Virus record (IMG/VR): IMGVR_UViG_3300046011_000019
Coordinates: 1 to 20,453 of that record
DNA: 20,453 bases
Reading direction: 5' to 3' (one strand)
Source of the DNA: a virus
The position numbers and the translations under genes are program-made. This document shows, in pieces, positions 799-20,453 of this stretch. The notes below the pieces were generated by a model that saw only the letters and a list, made by a program, of their open reading frames with translations, ran no database searches and had not been told where the DNA came from. Position 1 is the stretch's first letter, and each line of letters opens with the position of its first letter.

Positions 799-1359
799 AT
801 GGATGAGGAAAAGCTACTACAGCTCGCTGCTGTTGTTGGTAAGCTAAAGAAAAAAGTAAGTGAGTTAGACTCCAAAGCAGATACCATCATTAAGCTGGAA
901 GGACCACAAGGTAAACAAGGTCCAAGAGGTGAAAAAGGTAATCCTGGTAAAGATGGACTACCAGGAAAAGATGGTAGAGATGGTGTTGATGGTAAAGATG
1001 GTAAGGACGGTAAAGCAGGTAAGGATGGTGTATCTGTTGTTGATGCTTACATTGACATTGACAACTCACTGGTACTTAAACTGTCTAATGGTATTGAAGT
1101 CAGTGCTGGTGAGTTACCACAGACTTCTAAGTCCAAGGACAACATATACATTCAGAATACACAGCAGTTTGGACTAGATGGTTTACCTGATGCCTCTGAA
1201 GATCCTGTACCAGAATACTTTCTTGTTAGACAAGACGGACAATGGAAGAAAGCATCGTTTACTTACTTACTTGGTTGGCTTAGTGTTGCGAACATCCTGG
1301 CTACTGAAAACGGTAATTTACTTACCACAGAAGCTGGTGACTACATTATCATGGAGTAG
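799..1359 (+). CDS. Collagen-like fibre protein
   Basis: This is a 186-residue protein. Residues 1-34 are a charged, heptad-like helix that could act as a trimerising or attachment segment. Residues 35-79 are 15 uninterrupted Gly-X-Y triplets, rich in G-K-D with G-N-P and G-L-P, which is the signature of a collagen triple helix. The remaining C-terminal domain is globular and ends in a '[16 protein letters not shown]' type motif that is common at the ends of phage fibre proteins. Collagen-like repeats occur in phage fibres and tail appendages as trimeric spacers. The gene starts 2 bases after the portal stop and 2 bases before the next fibre gene, so it is probably co-translated with them. 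A structural fibre role is inferred from the repeat and the context; which appendage it belongs to is unknown. Confidence 0.8.
903..1037 (+). repeat. Gly-X-Y collagen-like repeat region
   Basis: The codons for residues 35-79 of the collagen-like protein form 15 consecutive 9-base Gly-X-Y units. At the DNA level the stretch is dominated by near-repeats of GGT AAA GAT/GAC, so it could expand or contract by recombination or slippage. Confidence 0.8.
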
Positions 1360-2021: not shown

Positions 2022-2744
2022 GTGAGTAATCTCAAAGTCCAGGGTAATGCAAGCGGTACTGGAACAACTACGATACAGTCAGCAAATACTTCTTCTAGCA
2101 CAACATTTACGTTACCTGCCACAGATGGAACAAATGGTCAGTTCTTAAGTACGGACGGATCAGGCAATTTAACGTTTAGTTCTGCTGCTGGTGGTGGTTC
2201 TGTCACTACTGTATCCGTTGTTTCAGCTAATGGTTTAGCAGGAACAGTTGCTAATGCTTCATCAACACCAGCAATTACTTTATCAACATCAATAACAGGT
2301 GTTTTAAAAGGTAATGGTACAGCAATATCTGCCGCTACTGCTGGTACTGATTATGTAGTTCCTGGAGGTGCGCTAGGAACACCTTCTTCTGGAACACTAT
2401 CAAGTTGTACAGTAGACGGAACTAACAAGGTTGGTTATATCGGTGCTCCACAAAGTACAAATACAACAGTTGCTGCTAGTGACGCAGGAAAGCATATTTA
2501 CTTTACTGGTGGATCGACAGCAACATTAACGGTTAACACCAACGCAACAACAGCCATTGACGTAGGAACAACCATTCTTGTTGTTAACAACAATTCAGGG
2601 AACCTAACAATATCTGGTGCTGGTGTTACTTTCCAGCTTGCTAACGGAGCAACAGGAAACAGGACAGTAGCAACAAAGGGAATGGCTACGTTACTTAAAG
2701 TAGCTACAGATACTTGGTATGTTTCTGGCGCAGGAGTGACCTAA
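2022..2744 (+). CDS. Tail fibre protein (Ser/Thr-rich), GTG start
   Basis: This is a 240-residue Thr/Ser/Asn/Gly-rich protein. It starts with GTG at 2022, chosen because AGGAGAG at 2011-2017 lies just upstream and no better ATG is near. The segment 'GVLKGNGTAI' followed by 'AGTDYVVPGG' (about residues 92-116) is a standard phage fibre/appendage motif. The C-terminal half ('AASDAGKHIYFT' through 'TWYVSGAGV') looks like a beta-sandwich or beta-helix end domain. It is sandwiched between another fibre gene (9-base gap) and the glycine-rich gene (1-base gap), so it is most likely a fibre or fibre-tip component translated in series with them. The exact role and the receptor are unknown. Confidence 0.75.
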   Translation: MSNLKVQGNASGTGTTTIQSANTSSSTTFTLPATDGTNGQFLSTDGSGNLTFSSAAGGGSVTTVSVVSANGLAGTVANASSTPAITLSTSITGVLKGNGTAISAATAGTDYVVPGGALGTPSSGTLSSCTVDGTNKVGYIGAPQSTNTTVAASDAGKHIYFTGGSTATLTVNTNATTAIDVGTTILVVNNNSGNLTISGAGVTFQLANGATGNRTVATKGMATLLKVATDTWYVSGAGVT

Positions 2745-2745
2745 C

Positions 2746-4422
2746 ATGGCTGGCGCATTAAGTGCAATGATTGCTGCTGCTTTTTCTGGCAGCTCGGCTG
2801 GCTACACCATCGTCCAAACCTTTACCGCTACGTCCACTTGGACTTGCCCTACTGGGGTGACTGAGGTTGAATATTTGGTTGTTGCGGGTGGCGGAGGCGG
2901 TGGTGGCGCATACGGCGGTGGTGGTGGGGCCGGAGGATTTAGAGCTGGAACCGGCCTCAGTGTTACTGCGGGAACTGATTACACAATTACCGTTGGGTCT
3001 GGAGGCGCAAGCGGTTCACCATCTAATACAACTAATACAGGTGGTGATGGTGGTTCATCTTCTATAGGATCACCAGCTTCAATTACATCAGCCGGTGGTG
3101 GCGGCGCCCCTGGATACCTACCTGTCAATGGTAGTGGCAGATCTGGTGGTTCTGGAGGAGGTGGTATTTTAGGCGGCCCAGGTGGCGCGGCTTCTCCATC
3201 AGGTCAAGGCAATGCGGGAGGAAGCGGAAACGGGGCTAGCGGTGCTGGAGGCGGCGGAGGAGGGGCTGGTGGGGCAGGACAGCCTGGGCAAAATCCTTCT
3301 GCTGGAGGCAATGGCGGTTTAGCTGGAACCTCAACAATTACAGGTTCAACGGTTTATTATGCAGGCGGCGGCGGAGGAGGGGCTTATGGCAACGTCACTG
3401 CCGGTTTAGGTGGTGGTACTGCTACAACTTCTCAAAAAGGCGGTGGAGGAGATGGAAACGGTTCTGATACTGGGACTGGTGCAGGTACAGCAGGAACCGC
3501 AAACACAGGCGGTGGCGGAGGTGGAGGTGGTAAAGGTTCTCCAGCTTACGCAGCAGCGGTCGGTGGAGCAGGCGGCTCCGGCATTGTTATCCTAAAGTAC
3601 ACCGTACCATCACAAACCGTATTTGTGTTTAAAGGCACTACAACGTGGAAATGTCCTACGGGTGTGACCTCTGTTGACTACCTTGTGGTTGCGGGTGGTG
3701 GGGGTGGGGGAAGACTCGGTGGCGGTGGAGGTGCTGGTGGTTACCGCACTGCTTCAGGAGTAACTGTTACGGCTGGAAATAATTACACAATTACTGTCGG
3801 CGCTGGCGGGGCAGGTTCAACAGCAAGGACGAGTAAAGGCACGACAGGAGATCCATCATCTATTGCACAAGTAGAAGGAAGCCCATCGTTCACAACCATT
3901 ACGTCTGCAGGAGGTGGCGGGGCTGGTTCTTATGAGTCGCCTGCACAAGCGGGGTTGACAGGAGGATCGGGCGGCGGGAGTGCAGGAACAGGCTCTACGG
4001 CTGGCGGTCCTGCGTCAACTTCTCCATCAGGGCAGGGCAATGACGGTGGGGCAAGTTCAAACAATGTTGGTGCTGGCGGTGGTGGTGGCGCTGGCGCTAC
4101 TGGTGGAAATGCCTCTGGGTCAACTGGTGGAAACGGTGGGGCAGGAATTTTAGGTCCATCGTATGCAAGCACTTACGGAGCGGCTGGTCCTGGTGGGTCT
4201 CCTGCTACGGGATATTACTCTGGAGGTGGCGGCGGCGCAGGTGATACTGCTGGAAGCGGAGGTTATGGTGGCGGCGGTGGCGGCACTACGGGCAATACAA
4301 ACGGGACAAATGGCTCAACAAATTCTGGTGGCGGTGCAGGTGGAGCTAGGGACTTCAATGGCGCAGGCGGCAATGGAGGAACAGGCGGTTCCGGTATCGT
4401 CATCATAAAAATAAATCAATAA
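2746..4422 (+). CDS. Glycine-rich fibre/adhesin-like protein with internal duplication
   Basis: This is a 558-residue protein dominated by glycine runs. After a short N-terminal hydrophobic/small-residue stretch it contains two homologous halves, residues about 20-287 and 291-558. Each begins with a W-x-C-P-T-G-V-x-x-V-x-Y-L-V-V-A-G-G core, carries a conserved 'TITVG' strand about 50 residues later, continues through long poly-Gly stretches, and closes with G-G-S-G-I-V-I-x-K. This matches the glycine-rich domain family seen in many phage and bacterial surface proteins. Poly-glycine-II sandwiches form the receptor-binding tips of some phage fibres, such as the S16 gp38 adhesin. That structure is an analogy here, not demonstrated. 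The DNA is richer in G+C than its flanks. It is probably a receptor-binding or decorating protein. Confidence 0.75.
   Translation: MAGALSAMIAAAFSGSSAGYTIVQTFTATSTWTCPTGVTEVEYLVVAGGGGGGGAYGGGGGAGGFRAGTGLSVTAGTDYTITVGSGGASGSPSNTTNTGGDGGSSSIGSPASITSAGGGGAPGYLPVNGSGRSGGSGGGGILGGPGGAASPSGQGNAGGSGNGASGAGGGGGGAGGAGQPGQNPSAGGNGGLAGTSTITGSTVYYAGGGGGGAYGNVTAGLGGGTATTSQKGGGGDGNGSDTGTGAGTAGTANTGGGGGGGGKGSPAYAAAVGGAGGSGIVILKYTVPSQTVFVFKGTTTWKCPTGVTSVDYLVVAGGGGGGRLGGGGGAGGYRTASGVTVTAGNNYTITVGAGGAGSTARTSKGTTGDPSSIAQVEGSPSFTTITSAGGGGAGSYESPAQAGLTGGSGGGSAGTGSTAGGPASTSPSGQGNDGGASSNNVGAGGGGGAGATGGNASGSTGGNGGAGILGPSYASTYGAAGPGGSPATGYYSGGGGGAGDTAGSGGYGGGGGGTTGNTNGTNGSTNSGGGAGGARDFNGAGGNGGTGGSGIVIIKINQ
2803..3600 (+). 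repeat. Glycine-rich module, copy 1 of tandem duplication
   Basis: This is the first half of the internal duplication in the glycine-rich protein. It runs from the strand before W-T-C-P-T-G-V to the closing G-G-S-G-I-V-I-L-K. It aligns by eye with bases 3601-4419. The poly-Gly cores vary in length between copies while the framework strands are conserved. Confidence 0.7.
3601..4419 (+). repeat. Glycine-rich module, copy 2 of tandem duplication
   Basis: This is the second half of the duplication. It begins with the segment leading to W-K-C-P-T-G-V and ends with G-G-S-G-I-V-I-I-K at the C terminus. A third, more distant copy forms the C-terminal half of the fibre gene at 8204-9166. Confidence 0.7.
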
Positions 4423-4430
4423 GAGGGTAT

Positions 4431-4685
4431 ATGACAACAAAGGTATTTAGGTTCCTGGGGATTGATACAGCAATGCACTTGCTTCGTCCAGGTGCTAAAT
4501 GGGAAATCAGTAACAACGTCTTTACAAGGTGGGATGATCCACGGCCATGCCCAAGCATAGAAGAAGTGTATTGGGTCATTGACAAGATTCGTGAGTTTGA
4601 GGACAGCATCCCTACGATCTACACGGACGAGCAGTTAAAAGAGATGGGTATAGCCCGTGAGGAATTCCAACGTGCAGTTGCATAA
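4431..4685 (+). CDS. Small conserved phage protein of unknown function
   Basis: This is an 84-residue soluble protein. It resembles small proteins that I recall from marine and cyanophage genomes near fibre and oxygenase genes, with an 'FRFLGIDTAMHLLRP' start and an 'ISNNxFTRWDDPRPCP' core. I know no biochemical function for it. There is no membrane segment or signal peptide. The C-terminal half is an acidic helix. GAGGG at 4423-4427 precedes the ATG, fused to the stop codon of the glycine-rich gene. Its 3' end overlaps the start of the oxygenase gene by 14 bases, which suggests translational coupling and a shared task, possibly in fibre maturation or assembly. That role is inference from position only. 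Confidence 0.65.
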   Translation: MTTKVFRFLGIDTAMHLLRPGAKWEISNNVFTRWDDPRPCPSIEEVYWVIDKIREFEDSIPTIYTDEQLKEMGIAREEFQRAVA

Positions 4686-5274
4686 CCTATTCCCAACCCC
4701 TGTAGGCTTTGCAGAGCTTGGTAGACCTCTGAGCGATGAGGAGTTGTTCTTCATCCGTGAGCTTCAGACGCGACCCAACATGGGTAACACCACAAGCACG
4801 AACAACTTTGTGCTGCGTGACCCTGCGTTAACCTCACTGCGATCATTCATAGAAGATAGCGTCTCGGATTACTTCAAAAGCACAGTCAATCCTAAGCACA
4901 ATGTCAGCCTGAGAGTCACGCAAAGCTGGTGTAACTACTCAGAACCAGGGCAGTATCACCACAAACACGCACATCCTAATAGCTACATCTCAGGCGTGTT
5001 TTATGTGCAGACCAACGCTGATGACAGGATTTACTTTTACCGTGATGGCTGGCAGCAAATCAAGTTTCCGCCGGAGCAGTGGAACCCGTACAACTCTGAA
5101 AGCTGGTGGTTTGAAGCCACTGCTGGCAAGCTGATTCTGTTTCCATCGTCACTGACGCATATGGTTCCTGAAGTCAAAGGCGATGACACTCGGATTAGCT
5201 TATCGTTTAACACCTTCCCTGTCGGTGTTGTCGGGGAAGAAATGGATTTAACTGGATTAAAGCTGGAGGCGTAA
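4672..5274 (+). CDS. Putative 2OG-Fe(II) oxygenase (TIGR02466-like)
   Basis: This is a 200-residue protein. The GTG at 4672 is chosen as start because it gives the family-like N terminus M-Q-L-H-N-L-F-P-T-P and has GAGG at 4659-4662 with a 9-base spacer. An upstream GTG at 4657 would add five residues. The core shows S-W-C-N-Y then H-H-K-H-A-H-P-N-S-Y-I-S-G-V-F-Y-V (residues about 85-112). A later H in S-L-T-H-M-V-P-E-V (H163) and R174 are candidates for the distal iron ligand and the 2-oxoglutarate-binding arginine. These features match the putative 2OG-Fe(II) oxygenase family TIGR02466/2OG-FeII_Oxy_5. The classical HxD/E is not obvious; H-x-H is present instead, as I recall for this family. 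The substrate is unknown. It overlaps the next gene by one base. Confidence 0.75.
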   Translation: MQLHNLFPTPVGFAELGRPLSDEELFFIRELQTRPNMGNTTSTNNFVLRDPALTSLRSFIEDSVSDYFKSTVNPKHNVSLRVTQSWCNYSEPGQYHHKHAHPNSYISGVFYVQTNADDRIYFYRDGWQQIKFPPEQWNPYNSESWWFEATAGKLILFPSSLTHMVPEVKGDDTRISLSFNTFPVGVVGEEMDLTGLKLEA

Positions 5275-5633
5275 TGGCTCACTTTGCAAAGATTGATGAA
5301 AATAATGTTGTTACTCAAGTAGTGGTTGTTGACAACAAAGATACTTCTGATGCTGAAGGTGTAGAAAAAGAACACATCGGTGCAGCTCACTTAGAGAAGA
5401 TCTTAGGTGGTAACTGGAAACAAACCTCTTACAACGGTAACTTTAGAAAGAACTATGCTGGTATTGGTTATACGTACAGATCAGACATTGATGCTTTTGT
5501 ACCACCTAAACCATTTCCATCTTGGTTACTTAATGCAGATGCTCAGTGGGAAGCCCCTGTAGCAATGCCTACAGATGGTCAGATGTATTCATGGGATGAA
5601 GAAAATATTAACTGGGTATTGACAAATATGTAA
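5274..5633 (+). CDS. Conserved phage protein with AGIG motif (fibre-associated?)
   Basis: This is a 119-residue protein of a type I recall as common in marine and cyanophage genomes ('MAHFAKID', 'VVVVDNKD', 'WKQTSYNGNFRKNYAGIGYTY', 'PPKPFPSW', ending with 'YSWDEENINWV'). No function is established that I know of. The N-terminal and central motifs match those of the shorter protein at 9175-9426, and both lie downstream of glycine-rich fibre genes. A role as a fibre cap, adaptor or assembly factor is therefore plausible but inferred. The ATG overlaps the oxygenase stop as taATG, so translation is probably coupled. The DNA here returns to the AT-rich composition of the rest of the window (19, 25, 23 and 22 G+C per 60-base line across 5281-5520). 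Confidence 0.7.
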   Translation: MAHFAKIDENNVVTQVVVVDNKDTSDAEGVEKEHIGAAHLEKILGGNWKQTSYNGNFRKNYAGIGYTYRSDIDAFVPPKPFPSWLLNADAQWEAPVAMPTDGQMYSWDEENINWVLTNM

Positions 5634-5923: not shown

Positions 5924-6146
5924 TTTTGAATGTGAGAACCATCACGTAACTGAACACTTCGTTGATAGTTCCGTAAGTAGTGTGCAGTGCCCGTACTGTG
6001 ATTTGTTAGCACATCGTAAGTTAGCAGCTCCTAGGAGTAAATTGGAAGGCATCACAGGTGCTTTTCCAACCGCTCATGATCGATGGGCAACAGTCCATGA
6101 ACAGGCAGCAAACGTAGCAAGATCTAAGTCCTACTATGAGGGATAA
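5907..6146 (+). CDS. Small zinc-ribbon-like phage protein
   Basis: This is a 79-residue protein. A first half-site C-x3-H-H (Cys at residue 9) and a second half-site C-P-Y-C (about residues 29-32) are spaced like a zinc ribbon of the FmdB-like phage type. A basic stretch follows (H-R-K-L-A-A-P-R-S-K-L) and then a segment F-P-x-A-H-D-R-W-A-x-V-H-E that recurs in such phage proteins. Zinc binding and nucleic-acid or protein contact are inferred; the first half-site replaces one Cys by His. It starts inside the 3' end of the preceding gene (17-base overlap), which suggests translational coupling. It is followed by a 55-base gap before the scaffold gene. The role is unknown. Confidence 0.7.
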   Translation: MRILNDFECENHHVTEHFVDSSVSSVQCPYCDLLAHRKLAAPRSKLEGITGAFPTAHDRWATVHEQAANVARSKSYYEG

Positions 6147-6201
6147 CTTAGATTTCTTTTTAATTCCTAACAATTGGGTTATACCCGACTAGGAGAAGCA
6201 G

Positions 6202-6984
6202 ATGGCTGAATTTGTAGAATCTCTAGATGAAGAAGTAGGTAACGATGAATTTCAAGCTGTAGAGGCTAAGGCTGAAGCAGCACCAACTCAGGAAGAACCT
6301 ACGATCCCTGAGAAGTATAAGGGTAAATCGTTAGATGACATCATAAGGATGCATCAAGAGGCTGAAAAGCTAATTGGTCGTCAAGCACAAGAAGTTGGAG
6401 AAGTTCGTAAGTTAGCTGATGAACTCATCAAAAGGCAAATCACACCGCAGGATCAACCTGCTAAAGCTATCGAAGATGATACTGACTTTTTTGCCGATCC
6501 TGTTAAGGCAGTTAACAAAGCAGTTGAATCCCATCCAGCAGTTGTCCAAGCTCAACAGGCTGCGGCACAGATGGCAAGGATGCAAACTGCAAACAGGCTA
6601 GCTCAATCGCATCCAGATTATACACAGGTCATTACTGATCCTGAGTTTGCTACCTGGGTGAATGAGTCACCTGTACGTCAAAGATTGTACCTAGCAGCGG
6701 ACAAACAATTTGACTATGACTCAGCTCATGAACTACTGTCCAACTTCAAAGCATTGAAGAAAGCTAAACAGGAAACTGTTCAGCAAGCAGCACAGCAGTT
6801 ACAGAGCCAAAGAGATCAAACCTTGAAAGCAGCTACGGTAGCGGTTGATGGTGCTACTGGTGAAACGAGCAAGAAAATTTATCGTCGAGCAGATCTTATT
6901 CGGCTCCAAATGACTGACCCTGAGCGTTATATGGCACTACAAGATGACATCATATCAGCCTATAACGAAGGTAGGGTTCGATAA
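6202..6984 (+). CDS. Capsid scaffolding protein (T7 gp9-like role)
   Basis: This is a 260-residue, acidic-to-neutral, highly helical protein; T7 gp9 is 307 residues. It opens with an acidic, disordered stretch (residues 1-35). A 'YKGKSLDDIIRMHQEAEKLIGRQ' type segment follows at about 38-62, which is characteristic of podovirus scaffold proteins. After that come long Gln/Ala helices and a basic C-terminal helix region, which in scaffolds contacts the coat protein. AGGAGAAG at 6191-6198 gives a strong ribosome-binding site. Its place immediately before the major capsid gene is the classic scaffold-capsid order. It would guide procapsid assembly and then leave the head. No protease domain is seen. 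Confidence 0.85.
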   Translation: MAEFVESLDEEVGNDEFQAVEAKAEAAPTQEEPTIPEKYKGKSLDDIIRMHQEAEKLIGRQAQEVGEVRKLADELIKRQITPQDQPAKAIEDDTDFFADPVKAVNKAVESHPAVVQAQQAAAQMARMQTANRLAQSHPDYTQVITDPEFATWVNESPVRQRLYLAADKQFDYDSAHELLSNFKALKKAKQETVQQAAQQLQSQRDQTLKAATVAVDGATGETSKKIYRRADLIRLQMTDPERYMALQDDIISAYNEGRVR

Positions 6985-8203: not shown

Positions 8204-9166
8204 ATGGCTAACTATACGAAGACAACTAACTTTGCTGCTAAAGATACACTACCGAGTGGGTCAGCAGGTAAGATCATTAAAGGTACTGAACACGATACAG
8301 AGTACAACAACATTGCTACTGCTATCAGTACAAAGTTAGATGCTGCGTCTGGTACAGTAACAAACTTAACTGGCAGTGCTGTTAACTTAAGTGTTGTTGG
8401 ATTAACAGCATCTAGCGGAACTCTAACTAATTTATCTTTTGCTAGTGGAACCATTAGTAGTTTACTAACTGATTTGGCAGTTGCTGATGGTGGTACAGGT
8501 GCTTCAACAGCAGCGGCAGCAAGATCTAACTTACTTCCTTCTTATACATCTAATGCTGGTAAAACACTAAATGTTAATAGTGGTGCTACTGATGTTGAGT
8601 GGGTAACACCTGCTGGTGGTTTTTCTAACATAGCTGTATTAACTAGTGGTACATCGTGGACAGCACCTTCAGGCGTAACAAAAATTAAAGTTACTTGTGT
8701 TGGTGGTGGCGGCGGAGGTGGGGGTGCTTATAACTCAACTGCTGGTGGCGCAGGTGGAGGTGGGGGAACTTCCATAAAGATATTTACAGTTACTGGAGGT
8801 TCTTCATATACCTATGCTGTTGGTGCTGGTGGGGCTGGAGGTGATTACTATGACTCAGGTAGGTTTCCACCAGGAACAAGTTCACCAGGAACTGCTGGAG
8901 GAGCATCAACATTTACTGTAGGTGGAACAACGATAACAGGAAACGGTGGTAACGGTGGTTCAGCAGGAGCTAGTGGAGGAGCAGGAGCAACAGGAGGAAC
9001 CGCTACTAGTGGTGACTTAAACATGACAGGCGGTGCTGGTATAGGAAGTGCTGGTATAGGTGGTGGTTCTATTCTCAGTAATCACGGAAATGGTTTAAGT
9101 TACGGCGGTGGTGGAAACGGCAATGGTGGTAATGGTGCTAATGGCGTTATTGTTGTTGAATACTAG
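8204..9166 (+). CDS. Tail fibre protein with C-terminal glycine-rich domain
   Basis: This is a 320-residue protein. The ATG at 8204 is preferred over TTG at 8195 because GAGG at 8190-8193 is well spaced and M-A-N-Y-T-K-T-T-N-F is a standard fibre N terminus. Residues 1-46 are the attachment-like start ('AGKIIKGTEHDTEYNNI'). Residues 93-110 carry the classic fibre motif V-A-D-G-G-T-G-A-S-T-A-A-A-A-R-S-N-L. Residues about 142-320 are a glycine-rich domain with W-T-A-P-S-G-V at its start and G-x-x-G-V-I-V-V-E-Y at its end, homologous to both halves of the protein at 2746-4422. It is probably a receptor-binding fibre whose poly-Gly tip contacts the host; the receptor is unknown. Confidence 0.8.
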   Translation: MANYTKTTNFAAKDTLPSGSAGKIIKGTEHDTEYNNIATAISTKLDAASGTVTNLTGSAVNLSVVGLTASSGTLTNLSFASGTISSLLTDLAVADGGTGASTAAAARSNLLPSYTSNAGKTLNVNSGATDVEWVTPAGGFSNIAVLTSGTSWTAPSGVTKIKVTCVGGGGGGGGAYNSTAGGAGGGGGTSIKIFTVTGGSSYTYAVGAGGAGGDYYDSGRFPPGTSSPGTAGGASTFTVGGTTITGNGGNGGSAGASGGAGATGGTATSGDLNMTGGAGIGSAGIGGGSILSNHGNGLSYGGGGNGNGGNGANGVIVVEY

Positions 9167-9174
9167 GAACTATC

Positions 9175-9426
9175 ATGGCTATCTACGCAGTTATTGAGCA
9201 AAGTAAAGTTGTCAATGTTTGTGTTGCTGATGAAACAGACAACAAACCATCTAATTGGGTATTGTTAGAAAACCCTAATGCAGGTATTGGTTGGGATTAT
9301 ATTGATGGTGTGTTTGTTGATCAGAGACCACAACCTGACATTGTACCCGTTCAACAACCTACTAAAGAGGATTTGTTAGCGCAGCTTCAGCAACTACAGC
9401 AACAGATTGCAGCCTTAAGTGAATAA
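9175..9426 (+). CDS. Small AGIG-motif protein, possible fibre assembly factor
   Basis: This is an 83-residue protein. Its first 60 residues share the layout of the 119-residue protein at 5274-5633: an M-A-x-x-A-x-I start, 'VVxVxVxD', and a central A-G-I-G-x-x-Y followed by I-D-x-x-F/V-V and a Pro-rich turn. The C-terminal 25 residues are a Gln/Leu heptad helix (L-L-A-Q-L-Q-Q-L-Q-Q-Q-I) that could form a coiled coil, as in some small tail fibre assembly proteins. Its place directly after a glycine-rich fibre gene (8-base gap) supports a fibre-related job. Function is inferred from context; the paralogy is by eye over a short length. Confidence 0.6.
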   Translation: MAIYAVIEQSKVVNVCVADETDNKPSNWVLLENPNAGIGWDYIDGVFVDQRPQPDIVPVQQPTKEDLLAQLQQLQQQIAALSE

Positions 9427-19154: not shown

Positions 19155-20453
19155 CTAGATTTCACATACACCGGCTACACAGGCTAGTTGCTGTGCACCT
19201 TCAACGTTATCATCATTTTCCTTAAGCATGTCCCAATTAATGTTTGCTGGCATCTTAGCTAACAAGGATTCATAGTCTTCCTTGCTGCATGTCTCATAAG
19301 GAGCCTGTCGATAAGTGCCCCCATCCATTGGCAGGAATGATACACCAGTACAGATGTCAAAGTTATCGAATACCCAAGCCCCTACAGTAGGCCATTCATT
19401 CTCATTGACTGAGATAGTTACTGAAGGTTTATGTTCGCACCAGTGAAGCTGATACACACGCCATAGCTTAAGATGAGATATAGCATCAACATCATCCCTG
19501 GTAATAGCACCTTCAGGAGCCTTCATAGGAAATGAGAACACTGTAGTGCTATCTGGTCTCATCACACAAGGTTCACTAGGAATACCTTGTTCGATCATAA
19601 ACGCCGTGAGAGGGTCTTTTTTATCTGATCGTACACGCCTAATGTAATACTGGGCATGTTGAGGATGAATGCCAGAAGCAGTGCCACAAAGCTGAGACAC
19701 AGTACCAGAAGGCTTGACGCAAGTGATAGCAGCAGAGACAGGGATATTAAGAGCATTTGCTGTAACTTCATTAGCAATGATTGCTTCATTTTTCAACATC
19801 TCCAATCTTGCTGGTAACGCTTTATCATCAGGATCATTCAGTAGTTTATGATCATAGATACCTGTCAGCGATACACCCAATAGACGCTCTTCAGCGGTGT
19901 TCTTTTCCCAGATCTTACGTAGGTATGGGAAGGTAGTCATTGTGCTCTGCCAAGTACCTAGAATCGATGCTACACGTACTTTGTACATCAAGTCTTGAAG
20001 AGTGTCCGTATCACGAACAATGACCTCTGTGAGGTTACAGAACTGGTAAGGACGAAGGATAATCTCTGAGCAAGGATTCGTACCGAAGTCATGGTTAGGA
20101 TCTCTACGGCCATTAACAGCTGCTTGCTTCTTCGATGCATCTCTGTTAAAGATACCACGTTCACCTGAATGGCTTTCATAGATCGAACACCATTCACGCA
20201 TAAACTGCCCTACTGAAGGCTTTACATCATACACAGCAGAGTTATTAGCAAGGCTACGCTGTCCTTGTTGTTCCCACCATGCCCCTGCTTTAGCGTGTGC
20301 CATACGATCATCACTGAGATCGCTTAAAGAGATCATTGCAGAACGCCGCACACCACCCACAACAACAACCTCCCCGATCTTGCACAGAATATCATGGCAT
20401 TCAAGGGACGACAGACGACGATTTTTGGCCGCTTGGAACTTCCTAATAACAAA
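19155..20453 (-). CDS. nrdJ: Class II (adenosylcobalamin-dependent) ribonucleotide reductase, C-terminal part
   Basis: The frame stays open to the right edge (31 more codons beyond the GTG at 20360), so the gene's start is off-window and 432 residues are visible. It reduces ribonucleoside triphosphates to deoxy forms using a thiyl radical generated from coenzyme B12. 'VVVGGVRRSA' near the start is family-typical. N-P-C-S-E (Cys codon at 20070-20072) matches the N406-C408-E410 active site of the Lactobacillus enzyme. A Cys 11 residues on corresponds to C419, and the C-terminal C-x4-C of 'CVAGVCEI' corresponds to C731/C736. 'CVKPSGTVSQLCG' is the phosphate-binding region. The C119 counterpart should lie outside the window. 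It is convergent with the late genes, so it belongs to another operon, probably for DNA replication. Confidence 0.95.
   Translation of the reverse strand, partial: FVIRKFQAAKNRRLSSLECHDILCKIGEVVVVGGVRRSAMISLSDLSDDRMAHAKAGAWWEQQGQRSLANNSAVYDVKPSVGQFMREWCSIYESHSGERGIFNRDASKKQAAVNGRRDPNHDFGTNPCSEIILRPYQFCNLTEVIVRDTDTLQDLMYKVRVASILGTWQSTMTTFPYLRKIWEKNTAEERLLGVSLTGIYDHKLLNDPDDKALPARLEMLKNEAIIANEVTANALNIPVSAAITCVKPSGTVSQLCGTASGIHPQHAQYYIRRVRSDKKDPLTAFMIEQGIPSEPCVMRPDSTTVFSFPMKAPEGAITRDDVDAISHLKLWRVYQLHWCEHKPSVTISVNENEWPTVGAWVFDNFDICTGVSFLPMDGGTYRQAPYETCSKEDYESLLAKMPANINWDMLKENDDNVEGAQQLACVAGVCEI

Follow-up and report, generated by a model that had tools for sequence, protein, structure and literature searches.

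A glycine-rich protein with two separately exchanged modules, probably the receptor-binding fibre tip of an uncultured freshwater podovirus

We describe a 558-aa glycine-rich adhesin that is probably the two-headed receptor-binding fibre tip of an uncultured freshwater podovirus, with heads that recombine and a small, probably mobile cassette of genes. Receptor binding is suggested by the predicted fold, the protein family, the position in the genome and the replacement of the adhesin by a lectin-type protein. The adhesin is encoded in a 20,453-base IMG/VR virus record, referred to here as the window (Table 1). The window carries podovirus-type genes, including a portal end, a P22-like capsid, an SU10-type adaptor and a lysozyme. 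It also holds the end of a ribonucleotide reductase gene (19155-20453, minus strand), truncated at the contig end and on the strand opposite to all structural genes. Nearly all differences between the window and three near-identical records fall within 190 bases of the portal gene (502-691), a cluster that looks like a small recombination event. Scanning viral contigs yielded 80 loci related to the window adhesin, the majority with two full modules; individual loci are given below by L numbers. Bacterial genomes were searched for the host, with seven distant, scattered matches in metagenome bins and no host found.

Table 1. Coordinates of the adhesin, its parts and associated genes in the window
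Feature	Position	Strand	Remarks
Window	20,453 bases		IMG/VR virus record
Collagen-like fibre protein	799..1359	+	PF01391, phrog_1806
Preceding fibre gene, probable docking partner of the adhesin	2022..2744	+
Two-module glycine-rich adhesin ORF, 558 aa	2746..4422	+	PF21722, phrog_2295; 63 double-module homologues aligned
N-terminal anchor peptide MAGALSAMIAAAFSGSS	2746..2796	+	predicted helix
Glycine-rich module 1	2809..3600	+	head VQTFTATSTWTCPTGV..., tail GGSGIVILKY
Hypervariable, exchangeable part of module 1	2998..3570	+
Inter-module linker TVPSQ	3601..3615	+	conserved family-wide
Glycine-rich module 2	3616..4416	+	head TVFVFKGTTTWKCPTGV..., tail GGSGIVIIKIN
Hypervariable, exchangeable part of module 2	3802..4383	+
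84-aa protein of cassette	4431..4685	+	phrog_21526; homologue downstream in 50/51 double-module loci
2OG-Fe(II) oxygenase of cassette	4657..5274	+	PF13759, TIGR02466, phrog_81
119-aa protein of cassette, candidate fibre chaperone	5274..5633	+	phrog_7759; downstream in 50/51 loci
Second fibre gene ending in a single glycine-rich module	8204..9166	+	module 8627-9163; PF21722 8645-9163
83-aa protein after single-module gene, candidate cognate chaperone	9175..9426	+

An earlier note, made from the sequence alone, had read the adhesin as a tandem duplication of a glycine-rich module within one protein, with start, middle and end motifs common to both halves. The present analysis agrees. The motifs are WTCPTGV (2836), YTITVG (2980) and GGSGIVILK (3571) in module 1, and WKCPTGV (3643), YTITVG (3784) and GGSGIVIIK (4384) in module 2. 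Pfam family PF21722 (Gly_rich_2) matches twice in the ORF and once further downstream, at 2824-3600, 3631-4410 and 8645-9163, with scores of 76.7, 66.9 and 38.6 bits that all exceed the curated cut-off of 24.3 bits; the whole ORF scores 135.4 bits. The ORF also matches the phrog_2295 profile (E = 3e-78). In the self-alignment, the two modules score 13.6 SD above shuffles that keep the glycines fixed and 20.2 SD above full shuffles. Since the former shuffles preserve the glycines, the likeness is not an effect of composition, and coincidence of low-complexity sequence is ruled out as its source. Within the window, 87% of framework columns (81% of the non-glycine ones) are the same in the two modules, as are 19% of other columns. 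At the DNA level the modules can be aligned over only a portion of their length (68% over 186 nt). A composition-corrected BLAST comparison of the modules gave no significant hit, a test that is uninformative here.

The third copy that the earlier note placed at about 8627-9163 is indeed a PF21722 module, scoring 6.0 and 6.6 SD above glycine-fixed shuffles, but its motifs are degenerate (WTAPSGV, YTYAVG and GVIVVEY) and it belongs to a separate fibre gene. The 83-aa protein encoded after it resembles the N-terminus of the 119-aa protein of the cassette. In the sibling locus L084, the shaft of this second fibre gene is identical to about position 8500, after which the glycine-rich end is replaced. 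The front of the 83-aa protein is replaced along with that end and its C-terminal helix is kept, the pattern that a cognate chaperone would show.

The double build is common to the family. In the alignment of 63 double-module proteins, the typical module 1 begins with VQTFTATSTWTCPTGVTEVEYLV and ends with GIVILKYTVPSQ, and the typical module 2 begins with TVFVFKGTTTWKCPTGVTSVDYLV and ends with GIVIIKINQ. For all 126 modules the nearest neighbours of head and tail sit in the same slot. The nearest neighbours of the variable part do so for 80 of 126, a count based on weak similarity (median 0.59), and the case for slot swapping made below therefore uses allele matches at the DNA level. Because the slot-specific heads and tails are common to the relatives, the duplication is old and predates the family. 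A recent duplication in this genome is ruled out, all 63 aligned proteins carrying slot-specific ends. Both modules contain framework blocks with conserved glycine stretches between them, and the segments between the glycine stretches are hypervariable in sequence and length at corresponding places of the two modules. Repeat length ranges from 238 to 301 aa for module 1 and from 238 to 352 aa for module 2. The proposal of a conserved framework with variable loops thus holds in both copies and over all 63 homologous proteins, conservation being far higher in the framework than in the loops. Double-module proteins are already present in databases, where they are unnamed or labelled ‘glycine-rich domain-containing’. 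On some contigs, three or four glycine-rich fibre genes stand in a row (L067:602-6308; L114:4306-8364), and L081 has two separate double-module genes on one contig (4270-5865 and 7662-9353).

AlphaFold2 predicts an ordered protein. The model of the 558-aa sequence, built from a 63-row alignment, has a mean pLDDT of 87.3, with low confidence mainly in residues 1-16 and in a single short loop. It resembles solved glycine-rich fibre tips, and the disorder that the earlier note had named as counter-evidence is not what is predicted. The model is a monomer with a pTM of 0.63, and how its two modules are arranged relative to each other is uncertain; phage fibres are usually trimers. A Foldseek search of the PDB gave the Pam3 fibre 7ypx as best match (E = 6e-5, prob 1.00), with chains of the tail tip of mycobacteriophage Bxb1 (9d93) and the TG domain of LTK (7nx1, E = 1e-3) also among the top matches. 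TM-scores are modest and reach about 0.5 when scaled by target length. Among viral structure models, 252 match at E <= 0.001, including the adhesin of phage HF2. A PDB sequence search with the single adhesin sequence found nothing, and the profile-based match to the Pam3 fibre is marginal (E = 0.02).

The three other cassette genes, for the 84-aa protein, the 2OG-Fe(II) oxygenase and the 119-aa protein, have homologues downstream of the double-module gene in 50 of the 51 loci with enough sequence. Those of the 84-aa protein and the oxygenase are often 90% identical or more across loci, and the position of the cassette relative to the capsid gene differs between loci. The 119-aa protein also occurs directly after single-module genes (L098, L110, L127 and L132). 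It is a candidate folding chaperone, which we offer as a lead and not a result: its structure model (pLDDT 91) has the Pam3 chaperone 7ypx_a as second PDB match, at a non-significant level (E = 0.97, prob 0.44). A Pfam search of the 84-, 119- and 83-aa proteins at a relaxed threshold gave nothing useful. In L007 (about 6004-6466), L019, L031 and L033, roughly 460-490 extra bases lie between the oxygenase and the 119-aa gene, which in the window meet at 5274. The collagen-like fibre protein near the oxygenase has a tandem Gly-X-Y array with a 9-base repeat at 967-1029 (within 799-1359); the protein is a possible substrate of the oxygenase. L075 combines a slot-1 head with a slot-2 tail in its one module (3128-4075), which is still followed by the 84-aa, oxygenase and 119-aa genes.

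L084 and the window have identical capsid proteins, and their flanks are 96-97% identical. In L084 the adhesin, 84-aa, oxygenase and 119-aa genes are swapped as a block for a 676-aa protein with three laminin-G-type domains. This protein retains the N-terminal MAGxLxAMIAxxFSG anchor, so that the anchor MAGALSAMIAAAFSGSS is common to the adhesin and to the laminin-G-type proteins standing in for it in sibling phages. The tail part of the preceding fibre gene is kept despite the replacement (72% DNA identity over 2479-2793). Similarly anchored proteins without glycine-rich modules occur in L054, L086 and L087. A laminin-G protein on the adhesin's anchor implies that the adhesin occupies the slot of an exchangeable binding protein.

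Comparison of the loci indicates that the modules assort independently. L025 and L083 have flanks and module 2 at about 97-99% identity and a module-1 variable part at 57%, which is background similarity. Likewise, L033/L036/L058 and L008/L031 have a common module 2 (97-99% at the DNA level) with unrelated modules 1, and L055/L082 and window/L007 have the same pattern of one-module replacement with other modules. Between the window and L017, upstream DNA is 98% identical and both modules differ. All contigs compared are metagenome assemblies, among which single mosaics could be chimeric. Over all pairs, module 1 identity has no predictive value for module 2 identity (r = 0.08). Alleles can also occupy either slot: the module 1 allele of the window sits in slot 2 of L017 and L019 (75% DNA identity over 650-690 nt), and module 1 of L079 matches module 2 of L011. 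The 135 modules form 97 allele clusters at 70% DNA identity. Within alleles, dN/dS is 0.04-0.20 in most pairs, with pS up to 0.6, and 0.38-0.65 in three pairs with few changes. These values are comparable to those of the flanking oxygenase (median 0.07). The earlier suggestion of a receptor-binding diversification module is right in that loop alleles pass between phages, but needs amending as to mechanism: the diversity comes from the exchange of old alleles that purifying selection maintains, and neither mutation nor a retroelement is its source.

Other sources of this variety have to be weighed against allele exchange. Targeted mutation, by a diversity-generating retroelement or similar hypermutation, could produce a conserved frame with variable loops resembling the phage tropism proteins of the retroelement kind, and the L084 fibre gene ahead of the laminin-G protein does bear an Mtd_N domain. 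Yet a reverse transcriptase was found in none of 28 records, most of them fragments, and whole variable parts are replaced, with insertions and deletions. Changes within alleles are mostly synonymous, the share of substitutions involving A varies from 10 to 64% with no consistent excess that would point to adenine-directed change, and the three near-identical records have zero substitutions relative to the window inside either glycine-rich gene. We give this explanation almost no weight. Unequal crossing-over or gene conversion between modules 1 and 2 of one genome is improbable as the main source, despite the presence of some alleles in different slots of different phages and the L075 module, whose head and tail are what a crossover between the copies would leave. 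Module identity is no higher within a protein than between proteins (median 0.562 vs 0.559), and the number of allele clusters exceeds the supply of two resident copies. Assembly chimeras might be suspected because the break points do fall in the most conserved and repetitive DNA, at which assemblers can switch between common glycine-rich and framework sequences. It is very unlikely that they account for the mosaics, as three other records carry the window's allele pair and match it at 99.8-99.9% over 5.9-10.4 kb, the module 2 common to L033, L036 and L058 is found in different samples with different partners, and repeats do not drive the replacement of the whole cassette in L084.

The adhesin might also be a virion surface or decoration protein, sticky toward mucus, particles or exopolysaccharide and without a part in host choice. 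Gly_rich_2 and related domains do occur in many viral proteins, those of algal viruses included. We nevertheless consider such a role unlikely: the gene lies among fibre genes, the protein shares its N-terminal anchor with a laminin-G-type replacement in a sibling phage and matches a solved fibre tip, and exchange of allele types under strong purifying selection would be needless for a loosely sticky surface.

On the reading that we prefer, a receptor-binding fibre tip, the short N-terminal helix would dock the adhesin onto the preceding fibre protein. Each module is predicted to consist of a TNF-like beta-sandwich base and a glycine-rich bundle that holds the variable segments at its tip. Each is probably a separate binding head, which would let the phage bind a pair of receptors or contact a single receptor in two ways. 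Recombination events in the conserved base and the closing strand would swap the variable parts whole, one module at a time. The incoming part would be an old allele out of a pool common to related phages, and could be moved between slots 1 and 2. The adhesin travels with the 84-aa protein, the 119-aa protein as a candidate folding chaperone, and the oxygenase, which may have some role.

There are precedents for single glycine-rich adhesins, for modular fibres and for fibre cassettes. The best structural match is the fibre gp24 of the myocyanophage Pam3 with its chaperone gp25 (7YPX; PMC9608196), which shares the TNF-like sandwich with glycine-rich loops. The Pam3 domain is built of stacked glycine-rich loops whose stems are conserved and whose tip is hypervariable and presumed to bind the receptor, and is held by the chaperone (PMC9608196). 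Conserved glycine stems and hypervariable tips are seen at the sequence level in the 63-protein alignment of the window adhesin family, and the 119-aa and 83-aa proteins are, by position, candidates for the small partner gene. Pam3 differs in having one glycine-rich domain on a helical shaft, whereas the window adhesin has two in tandem on a short anchor; the window is moreover from a podovirus and has an oxygenase in the cassette, and the sequence similarity is marginal. In the hafunavirus family (HF1/HF2-like haloviruses), a glycine-rich adhesin is the main host-range determinant (PMC8651126). These adhesins resemble that of the window in PF21722 (E = 6e-30 for the single glycine-rich gene of Halorubrum phage HF2), a predicted fold match, hypervariable segments tied to host range and a small adjoining gene (PMC8651126), but have one module per protein and an archaeal host; a phrog_7759 partner was looked for in HF2 and not found. 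The gp38 adhesins of the T-even phages S16 and PP01 (poly-glycine II sandwich; PMC12892980) likewise have a glycine-rich frame with hypervariable receptor loops that determine host range, but on a beta-helix base. No gp38 appears among the PDB sequence or fold matches of the adhesin, whose only Pfam match is PF21722, and it does not test as a member of the gp38 family. The TG (TNF-like plus glycine-rich) domain of LTK/ALK matches in predicted fold (E = 1e-3), a resemblance that may reflect deep homology or convergence; it differs in belonging to a eukaryotic receptor with one such region, not exchanged. Alteromonas phages have shared host-recognition modules in which a fibre and chaperone cassette sits on unrelated phage backbones (PMC10579305). 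They have no two-module adhesin, and PMC10579305 mentions no glycine-rich protein or oxygenase. We did not find two independently exchanged heads, slot-specific frames and a conserved four-gene cassette described in the literature searched.

2OG-Fe(II) oxygenases are common in phages, and the cassette ties one to a single kind of fibre tip. A further reading, which we hold tentatively and at somewhat less than even odds, is that of a two-slot combinatorial adhesin: either slot would accept any head from a large common pool of old, conserved receptor specificities, with the holder, chaperone and modifying oxygenase moving between unrelated freshwater phages. If so, mixing of heads would change or double the host range of a phage. 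Tandem heads that are exchanged independently, with old and purified alleles, would make receptor specificity a set of countable, interchangeable types. This opens the question of which head fits which lake-bacterial surface, and whether a second head means a second receptor. The exchange of ready-made parts suggests how such viruses may change hosts.
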